This document shows, in pieces, positions 1,767 through 46,942 of a DNA stretch of 53,221 nt. The notes below the pieces were generated by a model that had not been told where the DNA came from, searched no databases, and worked only from the letters and a program-made list of their open reading frames with translations. The stretch comes from Erysipelotrichaceae bacterium (lineage in GTDB: Bacteria > Bacillota_I > Bacilli_A > Erysipelotrichales > Erysipelotrichaceae), in the NCBI GenBank assembly GCA_029101345.1, contig JAQXQU010000044.1:1-53221 (forward strand). The letters run 5' to 3'. Each line of letters begins with the position of its first letter. Position 1 is the stretch's first letter. The position numbers were made by a program, and so were the translations under genes.

Positions 1767-2704
1767 TTAAAAGGACAGCTTAAAGCCCTGTGAGAGCGTA
1801 TACTCTGCAGGGCTTTTATAATTCAGCTTGTACATCGGCCTTTCATGGTTGTAGTAATGAACATATTCTTTTATGAAGTCATAGATGGATTCATACTCAT
1901 TGATGTTGTAGTCGCATTTCATCTGTGCCTTGATCCATCCGTTCATTGATTCGATAACCGGATTATCAGTTGGCGTTCCGGCTCGCGACATGGACCGAAT
2001 AATGTTAGAATTTAGGAAAGCTTGGCTGGAGCTTATTGAAGAATATACTGCGCCCTAGTCTCTTGTGGAAATGGATTGGCTCATGTAATTCTTCTTTTTT
2101 TATTTTTCCTAATAGTTCATCCCGGCATTTGAAGTATGGTTTCACATCACCGCGATTACCTGATATGTCCCATGTGATTATTGAATTGTTGCATGCATCC
2201 AGGAAGAATGTCCATTCATACAGTTTTCCTCTATAAGGCAAGACGGCCATGTCAGATACTATCTTATGAAGTGGAGCTGTGGTGTCCCAGCTGTTCCATA
2301 TCCTGTTTTCATAGATTATGTGTTGACTACCAGGTTTTTTATACTGATAATGTCTAGCTTTGGATCTGATTCCCAAGTGTTTGCACACCTTATGGCACAG
2401 GTTGTCAGAGAATGCCAGGCCCGTATTCTCTCTTATTGCCTTAGCCAAGGCGTGATAGCCATATGATGGATGTTTCCTGTATTCACCCTTAATCAGAACT
2501 GATAGATCATTTCTGTCTTTTCTCATACTGATTAATATCTCTGCCAAGCCATTTGTAGTATCCGGATCTGTTTACAGACATGATCCTGCACAAGGAGCTG
2601 ACACTGTATTGTTTACTCAATTCTTTGATGATTTCGTATTCGCATCGAATATGGAAACGTACTCCTTGCTTGCACCACCTCCTCTGGCCAGGTATCCTTT
2701 TTTT
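1767..2704 (-). pseudogene. IS3-family OrfB (DDE integrase-type transposase), disrupted
   Basis: Three minus-strand pieces together make one orfB. The N-terminal piece includes YEIIKELSK and SGYYKWL. The middle piece (2005-2547) has the HPSYGYHAL region and the first part of the rve core. The C-terminal piece (1767-1991) holds the final catalytic Glu in PTDNPVIESMNGW. The first break is one extra A in an A4 run near 2518-2521. The second is a frame shift near 2060-2066 beside a TAG at 2055-2057, where the conserved DQG of the second catalytic Asp needs CAG. The product is therefore non-functional. Confidence 0.85.
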
Positions 2705-2994
2705 AATCGTTCGTTCCCTGTCTTCAGCTTGAGGTTCTCCAGTTCCAGGCGCTGTTCATTGGTTAATGATTTGGATGAATGAGGAGCTGCGAATTTATTG
2801 CCTCTATGTTTTCTTCCTTCTTTGAGAATTCCTTCATTATAAAGCTTCATCCAGTCTCTAATTCTCTTCTCGACTATTCCATATTTATCTGCCGTTTCCA
2901 GAAGAGAAAGATGATTCCTTAAATAATCTTCAACCACTTTCAATTTGAACTCGTAAGGATACTTTCTATTTTTGCCGCCTTTAGGTCTTCCCAT
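2617..2994 (-). CDS. IS3-family OrfA (helix-turn-helix protein)
   Basis: This 125-residue protein begins MGRPKGGKNRKYPYEFK. It has a helix-turn-helix (about residues 12-55) that in IS3 elements binds the terminal repeats. A leucine-zipper-like helix follows (LELENLKLKTGNERLKKG), at the site of -1 frameshifting into OrfB. A ribosome-binding site GGAGGAG lies upstream on the minus strand. The frame is intact, but it can no longer produce an active OrfAB because orfB is broken. It could still act as a competitor at related IS ends. Confidence 0.8.
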   Translation of the reverse strand: MGRPKGGKNRKYPYEFKLKVVEDYLRNHLSLLETADKYGIVEKRIRDWMKLYNEGILKEGRKHRGNKFAAPHSSKSLTNEQRLELENLKLKTGNERLKKGYLARGGGASKEYVSIFDANTKSSKN

Positions 2995-6469: not shown

Positions 6470-8236
6470 ATGAATTACCTGCCTGCTAAGCTTGTCAAAC
6501 TGCGCAAGCACTACAATTTCTCACAAAACCATTTGGCTAAGGTTCTGGATATTGATGTTCTGGAATATATGGGCTATGAGAATGGGCGTTGCGTTCCTGG
6601 CTACAATCAGATCAGAAAACTGGCATCCTTTTACCATATCAGCTTTACTGAACTTTTCCGCAATGATGAAAATGCCACACTTTTCAATGTCAGGAAGGGC
6701 AGCACTGATGAAGTCAACATTTCCTACTTCCTGAAGGAAAAAAGCTTCTTTGCAAAAGCTGTTGACAAGATCAGGGATTATGCCAAGATTCATCCATATC
6801 GCTGGTATGGCTTTCTGTTTCTGCTGCTATGTGTCTTTGTCAGCTTCTTTGTTTTGCTTAAGGTGGGTTCGGAAACTCTTCCTTATACACCTACCATCAA
6901 TGATACCTATCGTCTTGATGTCTCTGATACAACAGTGGTCTATATCGATAATGCTGGAGCTATCAGAGGCAGTGGTGATAATGCCAATGGCCAGATATCC
7001 AATCTATCAACAAGTCCAGCTATCAAGGTGGTAGAAGGCTCTAATTTTACAATAGCCCTAATGGCTGATGGTACGCTTCAGTCTTATGGCCTATTGGGGA
7101 AATATGCCAAGGAACTTGATGGTTTAAGCAATATCGTTGATATTGCCGCTGGCAATGGCCATGTTGTTGCAGTTGACAACAAGGGCAGACCTTATGCTGT
7201 TGGTGACAATAGCTTTGGCCAATGCGATGTCTCATCCTTTTCTGATATCATCAGAGTCTATGCAACAAATACTGGCAGTATTCTGATCAGGCGGGATGGC
7301 AAAGCCCAATATTGTGGAAGCTTCATGGGGTCATCCATGCTTAAGAACCATGATTATATCAAAGGGCTTGATTCATCGGAGAATATTCTGGCTCTGATTG
7401 AAAATGACAACAAGGTCTATTATTATGCCAAGTCCAAAGTCTTCAATGCCGTATCAAGCTGGAAGGATATAGTTGATGTTGCTTGCGGTGATGATTTCAT
7501 AGCAGCTCTTGATAAAAGTGGCAAGGTCTATATTGATGTTGAAAGCGAAGTCATCAGGAATAAGGTTGCTGGCTGGGAAAACATCATTGCCATAGCTGCT
7601 GGAAATGATTATCTTGTGGCCTTTGATGGTGTTGATATTTATGGGGTTGGCAAGAACAGCTACCATCAGTATCCCGTCACCGAAGATGTAAAGGCAGTAC
7701 TTCCAACTGTATCCAATGTGAAAGTAACAGTTGATGGCAAATACCTTTCCATCCAGTTTGACAAGGTAGAGAATGCCAGCGAATATCTTGTCAGCATTGA
7801 TGCTGGCATCGGATACACCAGCCGCAGTGTTGCCAATATCATCAAATTTGACTTAAGCAATCTGGAGGATGGCAAGTCCTATCGCATTGAAATAACTGCC
7901 ATTGGTGAAGGTGATTATGAGGATTCCAATCCTTATGCCTTTGACTATATCTATCATCAGGCAGAAGAGAATAACAGCAGCGATAATGCACCAACGGTTA
8001 TTGAAACACCATTTACCATTGATATGCTCATTGGCAAGACCAAAACCAACTTTGAGGCCTATTTGCTTGGCTTGGGAGTTGATAAGGACAGGATGACTGG
8101 CATTGAAGTTGATGAAGAATGCAGTGGTGATGAAGCAGTCATTCTGGAAGTGGAAGGCATTGCAGAATTTGAGAAGATTACATCTTCCGAGCTTAAGGAA
8201 AGGGAAATCAGCTATAAGTATTGCAAGGTGGAATAA
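6470..8236 (+). CDS. Membrane-anchored XRE-type regulator with extracytoplasmic RCC1-like beta-propeller
   Basis: This is a 588-residue protein of composite design. An N-terminal XRE helix-turn-helix (about residues 3-60: LVKLRKHYNFSQNHLAKVL) is followed by a basic linker and one transmembrane helix (about 110-132, WYGFLFLLLCVFVSFFVLL). The rest should lie outside the cell. It contains RCC1-like repeats with G-x-N-x-x-G-Q turns (GDNANGQ, GDNSFGQ, GKNSYHQ) over about 150-410. An FN3-like segment (about 415-500) and a C-terminal PASTA-like module (about 515-588) follow. I chose ATG 6470 rather than ATG 6446. TATCAT at 6458-6463 ends 6 nt before 6470, and the residues added by 6446 precede the HTH without motif. 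Direct signal transfer from an external sensor to DNA is inferred. No target operator was identified. Confidence 0.75.
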   Translation: MNYLPAKLVKLRKHYNFSQNHLAKVLDIDVLEYMGYENGRCVPGYNQIRKLASFYHISFTELFRNDENATLFNVRKGSTDEVNISYFLKEKSFFAKAVDKIRDYAKIHPYRWYGFLFLLLCVFVSFFVLLKVGSETLPYTPTINDTYRLDVSDTTVVYIDNAGAIRGSGDNANGQISNLSTSPAIKVVEGSNFTIALMADGTLQSYGLLGKYAKELDGLSNIVDIAAGNGHVVAVDNKGRPYAVGDNSFGQCDVSSFSDIIRVYATNTGSILIRRDGKAQYCGSFMGSSMLKNHDYIKGLDSSENILALIENDNKVYYYAKSKVFNAVSSWKDIVDVACGDDFIAALDKSGKVYIDVESEVIRNKVAGWENIIAIAAGNDYLVAFDGVDIYGVGKNSYHQYPVTEDVKAVLPTVSNVKVTVDGKYLSIQFDKVENASEYLVSIDAGIGYTSRSVANIIKFDLSNLEDGKSYRIEITAIGEGDYEDSNPYAFDYIYHQAEENNSSDNAPTVIETPFTIDMLIGKTKTNFEAYLLGLGVDKDRMTGIEVDEECSGDEAVILEVEGIAEFEKITSSELKEREISYKYCKVE

Positions 8237-8421
8237 TGGCAAAAATCTGGAAAGTCAGCAATATCAGTGAAGTCCTCAGTGATGATGAACTGATCATAAA
8301 AATCAGGAAAGGGGAAATCAAAGCCGATGATTTCATTACCTGTCGGGATATGGAAGGATGGATTACTGTCAAGGATTCCATTTACCAGTTCTATTTGTCC
8401 AACGATGCATTAGATGCATAA
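8236..8421 (+). CDS. Small GYF_2-like domain protein
   Basis: This 61-residue protein starts at ATG 8236, which overlaps the stop of the XRE-RCC1 gene (TAATG); AAGGTGG at 8224-8230 is the ribosome-binding site. The sequence (IWKVSN, then DDELIIKIRKGEIKADDFIT, then GWITVKDS) has the W-x-V, G-x-I and W-x-x-x pattern of GYF_2/DUF4339 modules. These are small protein-interaction domains often found next to membrane segments. No signal peptide or helix is present, so it is cytoplasmic. Tight coupling suggests it works with the upstream regulator, perhaps on its cytoplasmic face; that is inference. Confidence 0.5.
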   Translation: MAKIWKVSNISEVLSDDELIIKIRKGEIKADDFITCRDMEGWITVKDSIYQFYLSNDALDA

Positions 8422-8466: not shown

Positions 8467-9801
8467 ATGAAGCTATATAACAGCATTAATCTCAAAGTTG
8501 AGGAGTTCAAGCCTATCAAAGAAGGACAGGTCAACATGTATGTCTGTGGTCCTACCGTCTATAATCATGCCCATATTGGCAATGCTCGTCCAATTGTTGT
8601 CTTTGATACATTAAGAAGAACATTGGAAGCTTTGGGCTATAAAGTCAAATTTGTCTCCAATTTTACAGATGTTGATGATAAGATCATCAACAAGGCCTTG
8701 GAGGAAGGAACTACTGAAAAGGTCATTGCTGAGCGATATATCGATGCCTATAATGATGTGCGTTCATCCTTGAATGTCATTCCTCTTGATGCAACGCCAA
8801 GAGTAACTGAAACCATGGATGATATCATTGCCTTTATTGATAAGCTTGTCAAAAATGGCAACGCCTATGAAGTCAATGGTGATGTCTACTTCTCAGTAGA
8901 TTCAGATCCGAAATATGGCGAATTATCCCATCAGAACCCTGATGATCTTCTTGCAGGGGCCAGAATTGAGGAAAATGGCCAGAAGAAGAATCCTTTGGAC
9001 TTTGCCTTATGGAAAAAGACAGAGAATGGCATCAAGTGGGATTCACCTTGGGGCAAGGGCCGTCCAGGCTGGCACACCGAATGTGTTGTCATGATTGGCA
9101 AGGAATTTGGCGGTGAAATGATTGATATCCATGGTGGCGGACGTGATCTGAAGTTCCCGCATCATGAAAATGAAGTGGCCCAGTCTGAATGTGTCAATGG
9201 CAATTGCCTAGCCAACTATTGGGTGCATAATGGCATGCTGGAAACAGCCGGTGGCAAGATGTCCAAGTCTTTGGGCAATACCAAATGGGCCAAGGACGTC
9301 ATCAAGGAGAATGGTGCAAATCTTACAAGATGGCTGTTGTTATCAGCTCGCTATCGTGATGCCTTGGTTTATTCCGATGAAACATTCAATGCAGCTAGAA
9401 GTGAATTATCAAGAATTGAAACTGCACTAAAGCAGCTTGAAGTCAAAGCGCAGACCAATGGCATTAGTGAATATGATGGTTTTGATACTGATATGTATCA
9501 GCAGTTTTTGGATGCGATGGCTGATGATCTCAATACACCTAATGCCTATAAGGTCATTTTTGATACCTTGAAACTTTTGAATCAGGCCTTAAGAACTAAG
9601 GAAGTTGATTATGAAAAGGCTTATGGTGAATATAATGCCATCAGAAAGATGCTTGAAGTCTTAGGTATCTATATTGAAAAGAAGACATTGAGTGCTGATG
9701 ATCTGAAGGTCTATGCTGATTGGAATAACGCCAAGGCCAGCAAGGACTTTGAATCAGCTGACAAATATCGTGCTATCCTAGCGGAAAGAGGAATTCTTTA
9801 G
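8467..9801 (+). CDS. cysS: Cysteine--tRNA ligase
   Basis: This 444-residue class I synthetase attaches cysteine to tRNA-Cys. It has Cys27, a ligand of the active-site zinc, the HIGH-type motif HIGNARP starting at residue 36, the zinc-binding WHTECVVM and HHENEVAQSE regions, and KMSKS at 264-268. The C-terminal anticodon-binding part is a little shorter than in E. coli. The start follows GAGGTG. Its TAG overlaps the GTG of mrnC, and cysS-mrnC-rlmB matches the Bacillus subtilis order. Confidence 0.97.
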   Translation: MKLYNSINLKVEEFKPIKEGQVNMYVCGPTVYNHAHIGNARPIVVFDTLRRTLEALGYKVKFVSNFTDVDDKIINKALEEGTTEKVIAERYIDAYNDVRSSLNVIPLDATPRVTETMDDIIAFIDKLVKNGNAYEVNGDVYFSVDSDPKYGELSHQNPDDLLAGARIEENGQKKNPLDFALWKKTENGIKWDSPWGKGRPGWHTECVVMIGKEFGGEMIDIHGGGRDLKFPHHENEVAQSECVNGNCLANYWVHNGMLETAGGKMSKSLGNTKWAKDVIKENGANLTRWLLLSARYRDALVYSDETFNAARSELSRIETALKQLEVKAQTNGISEYDGFDTDMYQQFLDAMADDLNTPNAYKVIFDTLKLLNQALRTKEVDYEKAYGEYNAIRKMLEVLGIYIEKKTLSADDLKVYADWNNAKASKDFESADKYRAILAERGIL

Positions 9802-45395: not shown

Positions 45396-46244
45396 ATGAG
45401 AACTTTTTTAAAGGAAACAGTTTTTATCATTGTTGGCACATTGATTCTGGCTTTTGGGGTTGCGAATTTCATTCTTCCATATGATGTCCTAACAGGAGGA
45501 GTTGCTGGTATTGCTGTTCTTCTTAAGCCTTTTTTGCCTTTAAGTGAGGAATTTGTTGCCTCATTTCTGGCAATGATTCTGCTTATTATTGGTTATTTTA
45601 CCTTAGGCAGGAAGTTTGTTGTTTCAACTGCCCTAAGTACCCTTGTTTATTCAAGTTCACTTATTTTCATGTCCAATCATCCGGTGGTGATTGAAACCGA
45701 TCCTCTTTTAGCATCGATGTATGGTGGCATGATCTGTGGTGTAGGCATTGGCATCGTCTTAAGAAATGGTGGCAGTACAGGCGGTATGGATATTCCGCCA
45801 CTAATCATGAACAAATATCTTGGCATTGATATATCCAAGGGTGTCATGATCATTGATGCTTTAACCGTCATTTCAGGATTATTCATTTATAATGTCAATG
45901 CTGTTCTTGTTGGTTTGATCAGTGTCTTCTTTACATCAGTAGCTTTGAATAAGACCATGTCCTTATATCAGGGTGCCCCTACGAAGTCAATTCAGATCAT
46001 TTCACCAAAGCATCAGGAAATCAGTGAAGCAATCCAGAATGAATTTGAAAGAGGAACCACAATTCTTTTGGCTAAAGGTGGTTATGAGGGTGAGGATCGC
46101 CCAATTGTCATGACTGTTGTCTATGAGAACCAATATCAGGGCGTCATCGATCTTATCAATAGATATGACAAGCAGGCTTTCATTATTGTCAGCGATACCA
46201 ATGAAGTCCATGGCGAGGGCTTTACCTTTGATGCACGTGTATAA
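45396..46244 (+). CDS. YitT-family membrane protein (DUF161/DUF2179)
   Basis: This 282-residue protein has five or six hydrophobic helices over about residues 8-190, with the glycine-rich GVGIGIVLRNGGSTGGMDIPPL motif. It ends in a soluble DUF2179 domain (about 200-280, ERGTTILLAKGGYEG). Its function is not established; some relatives affect cell-wall or lactate/amino-acid handling. There is no Shine-Dalgarno sequence: TATAAT at 45384-45389 ends 6 nt before the ATG. It lies head to head with darA. Confidence 0.85.
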   Translation: MRTFLKETVFIIVGTLILAFGVANFILPYDVLTGGVAGIAVLLKPFLPLSEEFVASFLAMILLIIGYFTLGRKFVVSTALSTLVYSSSLIFMSNHPVVIETDPLLASMYGGMICGVGIGIVLRNGGSTGGMDIPPLIMNKYLGIDISKGVMIIDALTVISGLFIYNVNAVLVGLISVFFTSVALNKTMSLYQGAPTKSIQIISPKHQEISEAIQNEFERGTTILLAKGGYEGEDRPIVMTVVYENQYQGVIDLINRYDKQAFIIVSDTNEVHGEGFTFDARV

Positions 46245-46261: not shown

Positions 46262-46942
46262 ATGATTTCAATAAAGAATGTTTCAAAAACCTATAAGAAT
46301 GGCACTCATGCCCTTAATAGCATCAACCTGGAAATAGCAGCTGGTGAATTTGTCTATTTTGTAGGACCAACAGGTTCAGGCAAATCGACACTGATCAAGC
46401 TGCTCGATGGTGAAGAAATTCCAACATCAGGTGATGTCATTGTTGCCGGCACCAATGTCGGAAAGCTGAAGAACCGCAAGGTTCCTCTATATCGTCGAAA
46501 TATAGGCGTAGTTTTCCAGGACTATCGTCTGCTTCCAAAACTGACTGTCTTTGAAAATATTGCCTATGCTATGGAAGTGGTTGATGCTCCTGCTGATACA
46601 TTAAGAGCCAGAGTCAGGGAAGTATTGAAACTGGTTGATCTCTCTGACAAGTCCAATGTCTTTCCAACTGAACTATCAGGCGGTCAGCAGCAAAGAGTAG
46701 CTATTGCCAGGGCAATAGCCAATCGTCCAAAGATTCTCATTTGTGATGAACCAACTGGCAATCTTGATCCACGCAAATCTGATGAAATAATCCAATTGCT
46801 TGAAAAGATCAACAAGGAAGAAAAGACAACAGTACTGATTGTCACTCATGATACTGTCATTGTCCGCCATCATCCAAAGCGTACCATTGCCCTTGAAAGT
46901 GGGCATATTGTCGCTGATATCAACAAGAAGGAGGATTTCTGA
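46262..46942 (+). CDS. ftsE: Cell division ATP-binding protein FtsE
   Basis: This 226-residue ABC ATPase has Walker A GPTGSGKST, Q-loop VFQDYRLL, signature LSGGQQQR and Walker B ILICDEPTG. With FtsX it forms a membrane machine that does not pump solute but activates peptidoglycan hydrolases. TAGAAT at 46250-46255 ends 6 nt before the ATG, and no Shine-Dalgarno sequence lies nearer, so the operon mRNA may be leaderless. It overlaps ftsX by one base. Confidence 0.95.
   Translation: MISIKNVSKTYKNGTHALNSINLEIAAGEFVYFVGPTGSGKSTLIKLLDGEEIPTSGDVIVAGTNVGKLKNRKVPLYRRNIGVVFQDYRLLPKLTVFENIAYAMEVVDAPADTLRARVREVLKLVDLSDKSNVFPTELSGGQQQRVAIARAIANRPKILICDEPTGNLDPRKSDEIIQLLEKINKEEKTTVLIVTHDTVIVRHHPKRTIALESGHIVADINKKEDF

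Follow-up and report, generated by a model that had tools for sequence, protein, structure and literature searches.

Introduction

Transmembrane transcription regulators with a co-encoded partner, or "cocomponent systems", include ToxR-ToxS, TcpP-TcpH and VtrA-VtrC (PMC10269533). In these, a single chain combines a DNA-binding-type domain, a TM helix and an outside part, and is accompanied by a small partner gene. The same plan is found in a two-gene locus of an Erysipelotrichaceae bacterium, within a 53,221-nucleotide stretch of DNA (contig JAQXQU010000044.1 of assembly GCA_029101345.1; the whole stretch is referred to here as the window). The parts differ: the VtrA/VtrB head is described as OmpR-family (PMC5693285), that of the window protein is XRE-type; its outside part is RCC1-FN3-PASTA-like, and its DNA binding is in doubt; and many cocomponent partners carry a lipocalin-like domain (PMC10269533), whereas the window partner is a predicted cytoplasmic GYF_2 protein. 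The main text of a survey of transmembrane regulators (PMC10269533) makes no mention of XRE, propellers, FN3 or PASTA. Literature searches on GYF-domain partners of membrane regulators turned up no characterized bacterial case, and a search for both RCC1 and Erysipelotrich- returned only an unrelated pig study.

BcrR, the Enterococcus bacitracin sensor, passes through the membrane several times and lacks a large outside domain. It is likewise a Gram-positive membrane-bound regulator, described as both sensor and DNA-binding protein (PMC10269533), but no partner protein is listed for it there, whereas the window module has the GYF protein. RodZ shares with the window protein an XRE-type HTH, one TM helix and an outside domain; the outside parts are unrelated, RodZ is unlike the window module in the matter of the GYF partner, and its HTH binds protein, not DNA (PMC6946637). 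The best PDB match of the window propeller, BLIP-II (TM-score 0.69-0.70 on target, 20-21% identity), is a secreted free domain inhibiting beta-lactamases (PMC9218822), whereas the window propeller is predicted to be membrane-bound. Plant CRINKLY4/ACR4 receptor kinases also display a seven-bladed RCC1-like propeller outside the cell (PMC4617170; 7a0j), but with a kinase inside rather than an HTH, and in an unrelated lineage.

The favored reading, to which a probability a little short of even is given here, is that the two genes form a transmembrane signaling module of one bacterial family, acting as a membrane cocomponent regulator. A regulator with transcriptional output and a RodZ-like scaffold are close rivals.

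Domain architecture and topology

The original prediction, that one 588-residue chain joins an XRE domain, one TM helix, RCC1-like repeats, an FN3-like segment and a PASTA-like end, is borne out by Pfam, AlphaFold and Foldseek (for the PASTA-like end by fold only, and for the FN3-like segment by alignment to repeats of relatives), and both ORFs are where it placed them (Table 1). The DNA-binding-type domain and the predicted TM region belong to the same chain (Pfam, AlphaFold, TM scan). The AlphaFold model, based on 34 sequences, has a mean pLDDT of 87.6 (~95 over the propeller) and comprises the HTH (residues 1-64), helices running into the membrane helix (109-133) and, beyond the propeller, a beta domain at 411-494 with an alpha/beta domain at the C terminus; its pTM is only 0.52, which flexible joints would lead one to expect, so the model does not fix how the domains lie relative to one another. 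Structure prediction had been set beforehand as a check on the suggestion of an outside propeller carried by an inside DNA-binding head: the propeller is present and predicted to lie outside the membrane, so that this refuting outcome, like the other one named in advance (no conserved pairing of the two genes), did not occur. DNA binding by the head is in doubt, helix 3 being usually acidic and without the customary contact residues.

Table 1. Features of the two-gene locus and its surroundings, in window coordinates.
Feature	Position	Strand	Basis
-10 box TATCAT, 6 nt before start codon	6458..6463	+	hexamer scan of orthologue upstream regions
HTH-TM-RCC1-FN3-PASTA-like protein, 588 aa	6470..8236, stop codon included	+	ORF, Pfam, AlphaFold
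XRE-type HTH domain, cytoplasmic, residues 1-64	6470..6661	+	Pfam HTH_19, HTH_3; family's most conserved domain
Helix 3 (DxxEYMxYENG), residues 29-39, altered at the positions that usually contact DNA	6554..6586	+	family alignment
Juxtamembrane linker, cytoplasmic, residues 65-108, including TDEVNISYF	6662..6793	+	TM scan
TM helix, single, residues 109-133	6794..6868	+	AlphaFold and TM scan
RCC1/BLIP-II-type propeller, extracellular, seven blades, residues 149-394	6914..7651	+	Pfam, AlphaFold, Foldseek
FN3-like segment, residues 411-494	7700..7951	+	alignment to relatives' repeats
PASTA-like domain, C-terminal, residues 508-588, invariant Cys551 and Cys585	7991..8233	+	predicted fold
GYF_2-like protein gene, 61 aa	8236..8421, stop included	+	ORF; GYF_2 matches among orthologues
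cysS, usual downstream neighbor, context outside the module	8467..9801	+	ORF

In Pfam searches the head matches HTH_19 (E 4.9e-7; 30.0 bits, marginally below the cut-off of 30.2) and HTH_3 (E 0.0019), and an NCBIfam search with the 588-aa protein gave XRE-repressor matches only, all sub-threshold. HTH and RCC1 profiles are matched in 61-62 of 62 relatives. The TM scan found one segment (~109-133) in the window protein and one in each of the 64 other loci scanned, with the exception of a weak second peak in L025; family-wide, this segment sits between HTH and propeller.

Members of the family come in a short form (~565-610 aa), to which the window protein belongs, and a long form (~590-835 aa). 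In the latter the cytoplasmic linker is longer and often acidic, and many members carry extra FN3-type repeats. A linker motif, TDExNIEYF, is kept across most of the window's genus. The long-form linkers of L075-L099 contain repeated [KED]TxV[MIT]-like motifs resembling Thr-phosphorylation/FHA-type sites, which could tie the long form to a PASTA kinase.

The outside arm

The propeller is recognized well above cut-off by both RCC1_2 (PF13540; E 1.2e-17, 63.6 bits against a cut-off of 22) and PF00415 (31.2 bits against 21.7), and the AlphaFold model resolves seven strand triplets, that is, seven three-stranded blades. Its Foldseek matches are RCC1/BLIP-II propellers (E 1e-15 to 1e-9), headed by bacterial BLIP-II (E 2.6e-15) and followed by UVR8, RCC1, HERC and the plant ACR4 receptor ectodomain (7a0j). 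The emphasis placed earlier on RCC1 folds as best known from eukaryotic signaling was thus misdirected: BLIP-II is the best PDB match, bacterial members predominate in the RCC1/BLIP-II group of a published set of propellers (PMC9218822), and RCC1 propellers are common in bacteria.

The segment that follows has no Pfam fn3 match in the window protein; it does align with the FN3-type repeats found in relatives, and among 62 relatives 18 have a Pfam fn3 match. The PASTA profile proposed for the C-terminal domain likewise found nothing in the 588-aa protein at E up to 5, and HHalign against PASTA domains of the same genome gave a weak probability of 16%. Modeled alone, however, residues 508-588 reach a pLDDT of 93, and the 12 best PDB matches (Foldseek) are all PASTA domains or PASTA-bearing PBPs, from StkP, a Staphylococcus Ser/Thr kinase, PBP1, PknB and PBP2x (TM 0.67/0.72 to StkP PASTA4; best E modest, 8.4e-3). 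The domain as modeled is PASTA-like by fold and missed by the PASTA sequence profile. Cys551 and Cys585 are invariant among the 34 sequences, which would fit an extracellular disulfide.

The outside arm varies strongly among relatives, with total lengths of 565-835 aa, extra FN3-type repeats and Pro/Thr-rich tails. Such variation in length and repeats is what might be expected if the protein were anchored in the wall for binding, its HTH being only a leftover of assembly or membrane insertion without a signaling role. This is improbable: mean pairwise identity is 0.55 in the HTH against 0.43 in the propeller and 0.34-0.43 across the outside domains, so that the HTH is the best-conserved domain, the opposite of a vestige, and a predicted cytoplasmic partner has been retained.

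The GYF_2-like partner gene

The start codon of the partner gene overlaps the stop of the large gene by 1 nt (TAATG), and a ribosome-binding-like stretch, AAGGTGG, lies within the last codons of the large gene. Here the profile evidence is divided: the window's 61-aa protein is sub-threshold for GYF_2 (PF14237; E 0.0031, 17.7 bits against a cut-off of 25.8), and the same profile matches 38 of 52 orthologues at E up to 0.01 (best 1.7e-11). The GYF proteins of long-form relatives retain the aromatic/GP signature WYY...GP[YF]...IW...W; those of the window clade keep the scaffold and a C-terminal "DSIYxFYL", having lost the GP and several aromatic residues. An "IxIPF"-like motif occurs in 23 of 27 long-form linkers with a GYF gene vs. 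1 of 4 without (Fisher p 0.028, uncorrected for relatedness); the pattern was written after viewing the linkers, so a docking site there is a lead only.

No fusion of GYF to the large protein was seen among strong GYF matches. Other GYF_2 genes of the bacterial family encode apparent zinc-ribbon proteins, mostly with tandem GYF_2 domains: they share these domains with the window partner but differ in usually having two or more copies behind the apparent zinc ribbon, and in lying elsewhere than at this locus. Those of L107-L114 often have as neighbor a short membrane protein bearing the motif C-P-G-C-x-x-T.

Distribution and gene neighborhood

The large protein was found in 66 of 196 genomes of the same family (Erysipelotrichaceae), and the stand-alone GYF-like gene in 61 of the 196, all among the 66; it is absent from all 130 family genomes without the large protein. 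Relatedness inflates the Fisher p of this co-occurrence, and the count by genus is fairer: 13 genera have the large protein and 12 the pair. The GYF gene is directly downstream in 60 of 65 loci, the gap nearly always falling between about -60 and +33 nt. The pairing put forward in the original prediction is therefore conserved, but not strictly obligate, since five genomes (one of the window's genus and the four members of another genus) keep the large protein without the GYF gene.

Full-length members were confined to this family in order-wide (295 genomes) and phylum-wide (392 genomes) samples; named full-length genome matches were Solobacterium sp. and uncultured Erysipelotrichaceae/Firmicutes MAGs. 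A mobile origin was considered and set aside: plasmid and phage records gave RCC1-part matches only and no full-length homologue. An apparent decayed insertion element, IS3-type transposase-like and split into several ORFs, is located at window positions 1767-2994 (minus).

Much of the locus, with gapA upstream and cysS downstream, is vertically conserved, and the small ORF might accordingly be no functional partner at all, kept beside the large gene by operon inheritance. That, too, is improbable: the pair persists while its neighbors change (cysS lies downstream at 45 of the 65 loci and also in the window, where the search pattern failed to pick it up, and was not found within the compared stretch in ~30% of loci; gapA is upstream in only 28 of 65), and among the 196 genomes the stand-alone GYF gene never occurs without the large gene.

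A conserved gene for a membrane protein of ~231-241 aa (e.g., RTKSSYTLMLVQC) lies between the GYF gene and cysS in L004, L012, L023-L027, L068 and L092. This gene, kept in some genera, is absent from the window.

Does the head read DNA?

The HTH fold and profile are retained, but the DNA-contact positions of helix 3 have been replaced family-wide. The recognition helix has the consensus D-x-x-E-Y-M-x-Y-E-N-G, with hydrophobic or acidic residues and a near-invariant Y-M in place of the polar positions of the canonical "VSxQTxSKWE". Its net charge in 61 members is 0 to -2 (mean -1.33), usually acidic and never net basic; for 14 further XRE-type domains encoded in this genome the average is about +0.64, an approximate figure because several helices were missed by the pattern and scored 0. 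A search for inverted repeats in the 100-nt upstream region, as possible operators, found only short AT palindromes and one 6-nt pair. On such sequence features, DNA binding by the head is in doubt.

The acidic/hydrophobic helix 3, with its near-invariant Y-M and conserved E/D, may instead point to a RodZ-like scaffold, in which the XRE head would bind protein and, with the GYF protein, tether an assembly in the cytoplasm below wall-synthesis or surface machinery gripped by the outside arm; the predicted cytoplasmic partner comes from a family of protein-interaction domains (GYF). This has an appreciable probability, if a minority one. The window protein is not classed as a RodZ: HTH_25 is not among the Pfam matches of the window protein, and none is over cut-off genome-wide. 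The same result counts against the scaffold, as does a search for MreB in this genome (95% complete), in which the sole PF06723 match was DnaK, so that the known partner of RodZ was not found. A further argument against it is the existence of HTH-TM-RCC1 cousins with a canonical helix.

These cousins (L101:2143-3357 and L193:3-1496 (minus)) are a second HTH-TM-RCC1 type, from two other genera of the same family, with a "VSRQTISKWE" helix; at least one of the two has no adjoining GYF gene. The broad design thus also exists with a DNA-type head.

About as probable as the scaffold is a combined proposal: in a lineage whose sampled genome is without MreB and RodZ, an XRE transcription-factor head turned to protein binding, carried by an RCC1-FN3-PASTA-like receptor that reaches into the wall and assisted by a cytoplasmic GYF adaptor of its own, might make up a new class of wall-to-cytoplasm signaling or scaffolding pair with no characterized counterpart.

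Proposed mechanism

The membrane cocomponent regulator favored here is a model in which computed features (the domains and predicted topology, a seven-bladed propeller, the PASTA-like fold, the conserved pairing and a probably leaderless promoter) are joined to inferred ones (ligand, adaptor role, output). The large protein would cross the membrane once, with the propeller, FN3-like spacer and PASTA-like end extending into the cell wall, where the arm may bind a wall component or a secreted or surface protein; cell-wall or secreted ligands are the most likely class. Binding could alter how the molecule oligomerizes or where it sits, and with it the state or position of the XRE-type head inside. 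The GYF_2-like protein, presumably made from the same mRNA via the overlapping or adjacent start, would be cytoplasmic and, judging from co-occurrence and domain type, might dock on the cytoplasmic part as co-component. The simplest output would be a change in transcription effected at the membrane, on the pattern of transmembrane regulators that have a small partner; this is the least secure step, and whether the module has a transcriptional output could go either way.

What speaks for a regulator is the single TM segment between HTH and propeller, with both profiles in nearly all relatives; the BLIP-II/UVR8/RCC1/ACR4-like propeller, PASTA fold and two invariant cysteines; the GYF pairing and the conservation of the HTH; the fact that transmembrane regulators with co-encoded partners are an established class (PMC10269533); and the canonical-helix proteins of two other genera. 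Counted against it are a helix 3 without the usual polar contacts or a net basic charge, the lack of an operator-like inverted repeat at the window promoter, and the five genomes in which the GYF gene is missing.

If the module does signal, the cocomponent class would extend to a sensor with a BLIP-II-type propeller and PASTA-like end and to a GYF-domain partner, and a gut-bacterial family would gain a pathway for sensing the wall or surface that can be put to the test. Should the head prove not to bind DNA, it would join RodZ as another XRE fold that has turned to binding protein at the membrane.

Promoter and translation start

The hexamer TAN[ACT]AT occurs 5-9 nt before the start codon in 30 of 37 non-redundant short-form upstream regions (at exactly 6 nt in 22), against a mean of 2.4 and a maximum of 7 in shuffled controls. 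The pattern was picked after inspection; control genes scored with the identical pattern had it before 0 of 50 cysS and 0 of 20 gapA starts, and mostly have Shine-Dalgarno-like sites. The short-form -10 box is mostly TG-extended. Leaderless genes have been recognized by a TANNNT signal ~10-12 nt upstream of the start (PMC3160421); by this criterion, with a -10 box ~6 nt before the start, the short-form mRNA is probably leaderless, with its predicted 5' end at or next to the ATG. Nearly all long-form members have Shine-Dalgarno-like sites instead of a close -10 box.

Upstream in the window is a divergent tRNA-Asn/Glu/Lys cluster. In many relatives a conserved TTTTTCAAGA stretch lies upstream; judged by eye, it was taken for the -35 element belonging to the divergent tRNA promoter rather than for an operator. 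At two other genes of the window, 45396-46244 and 46262-46942, a -10-like hexamer likewise precedes a start codon by exactly 6 nt; they may be leaderless as well, or the spacing may be due to chance.
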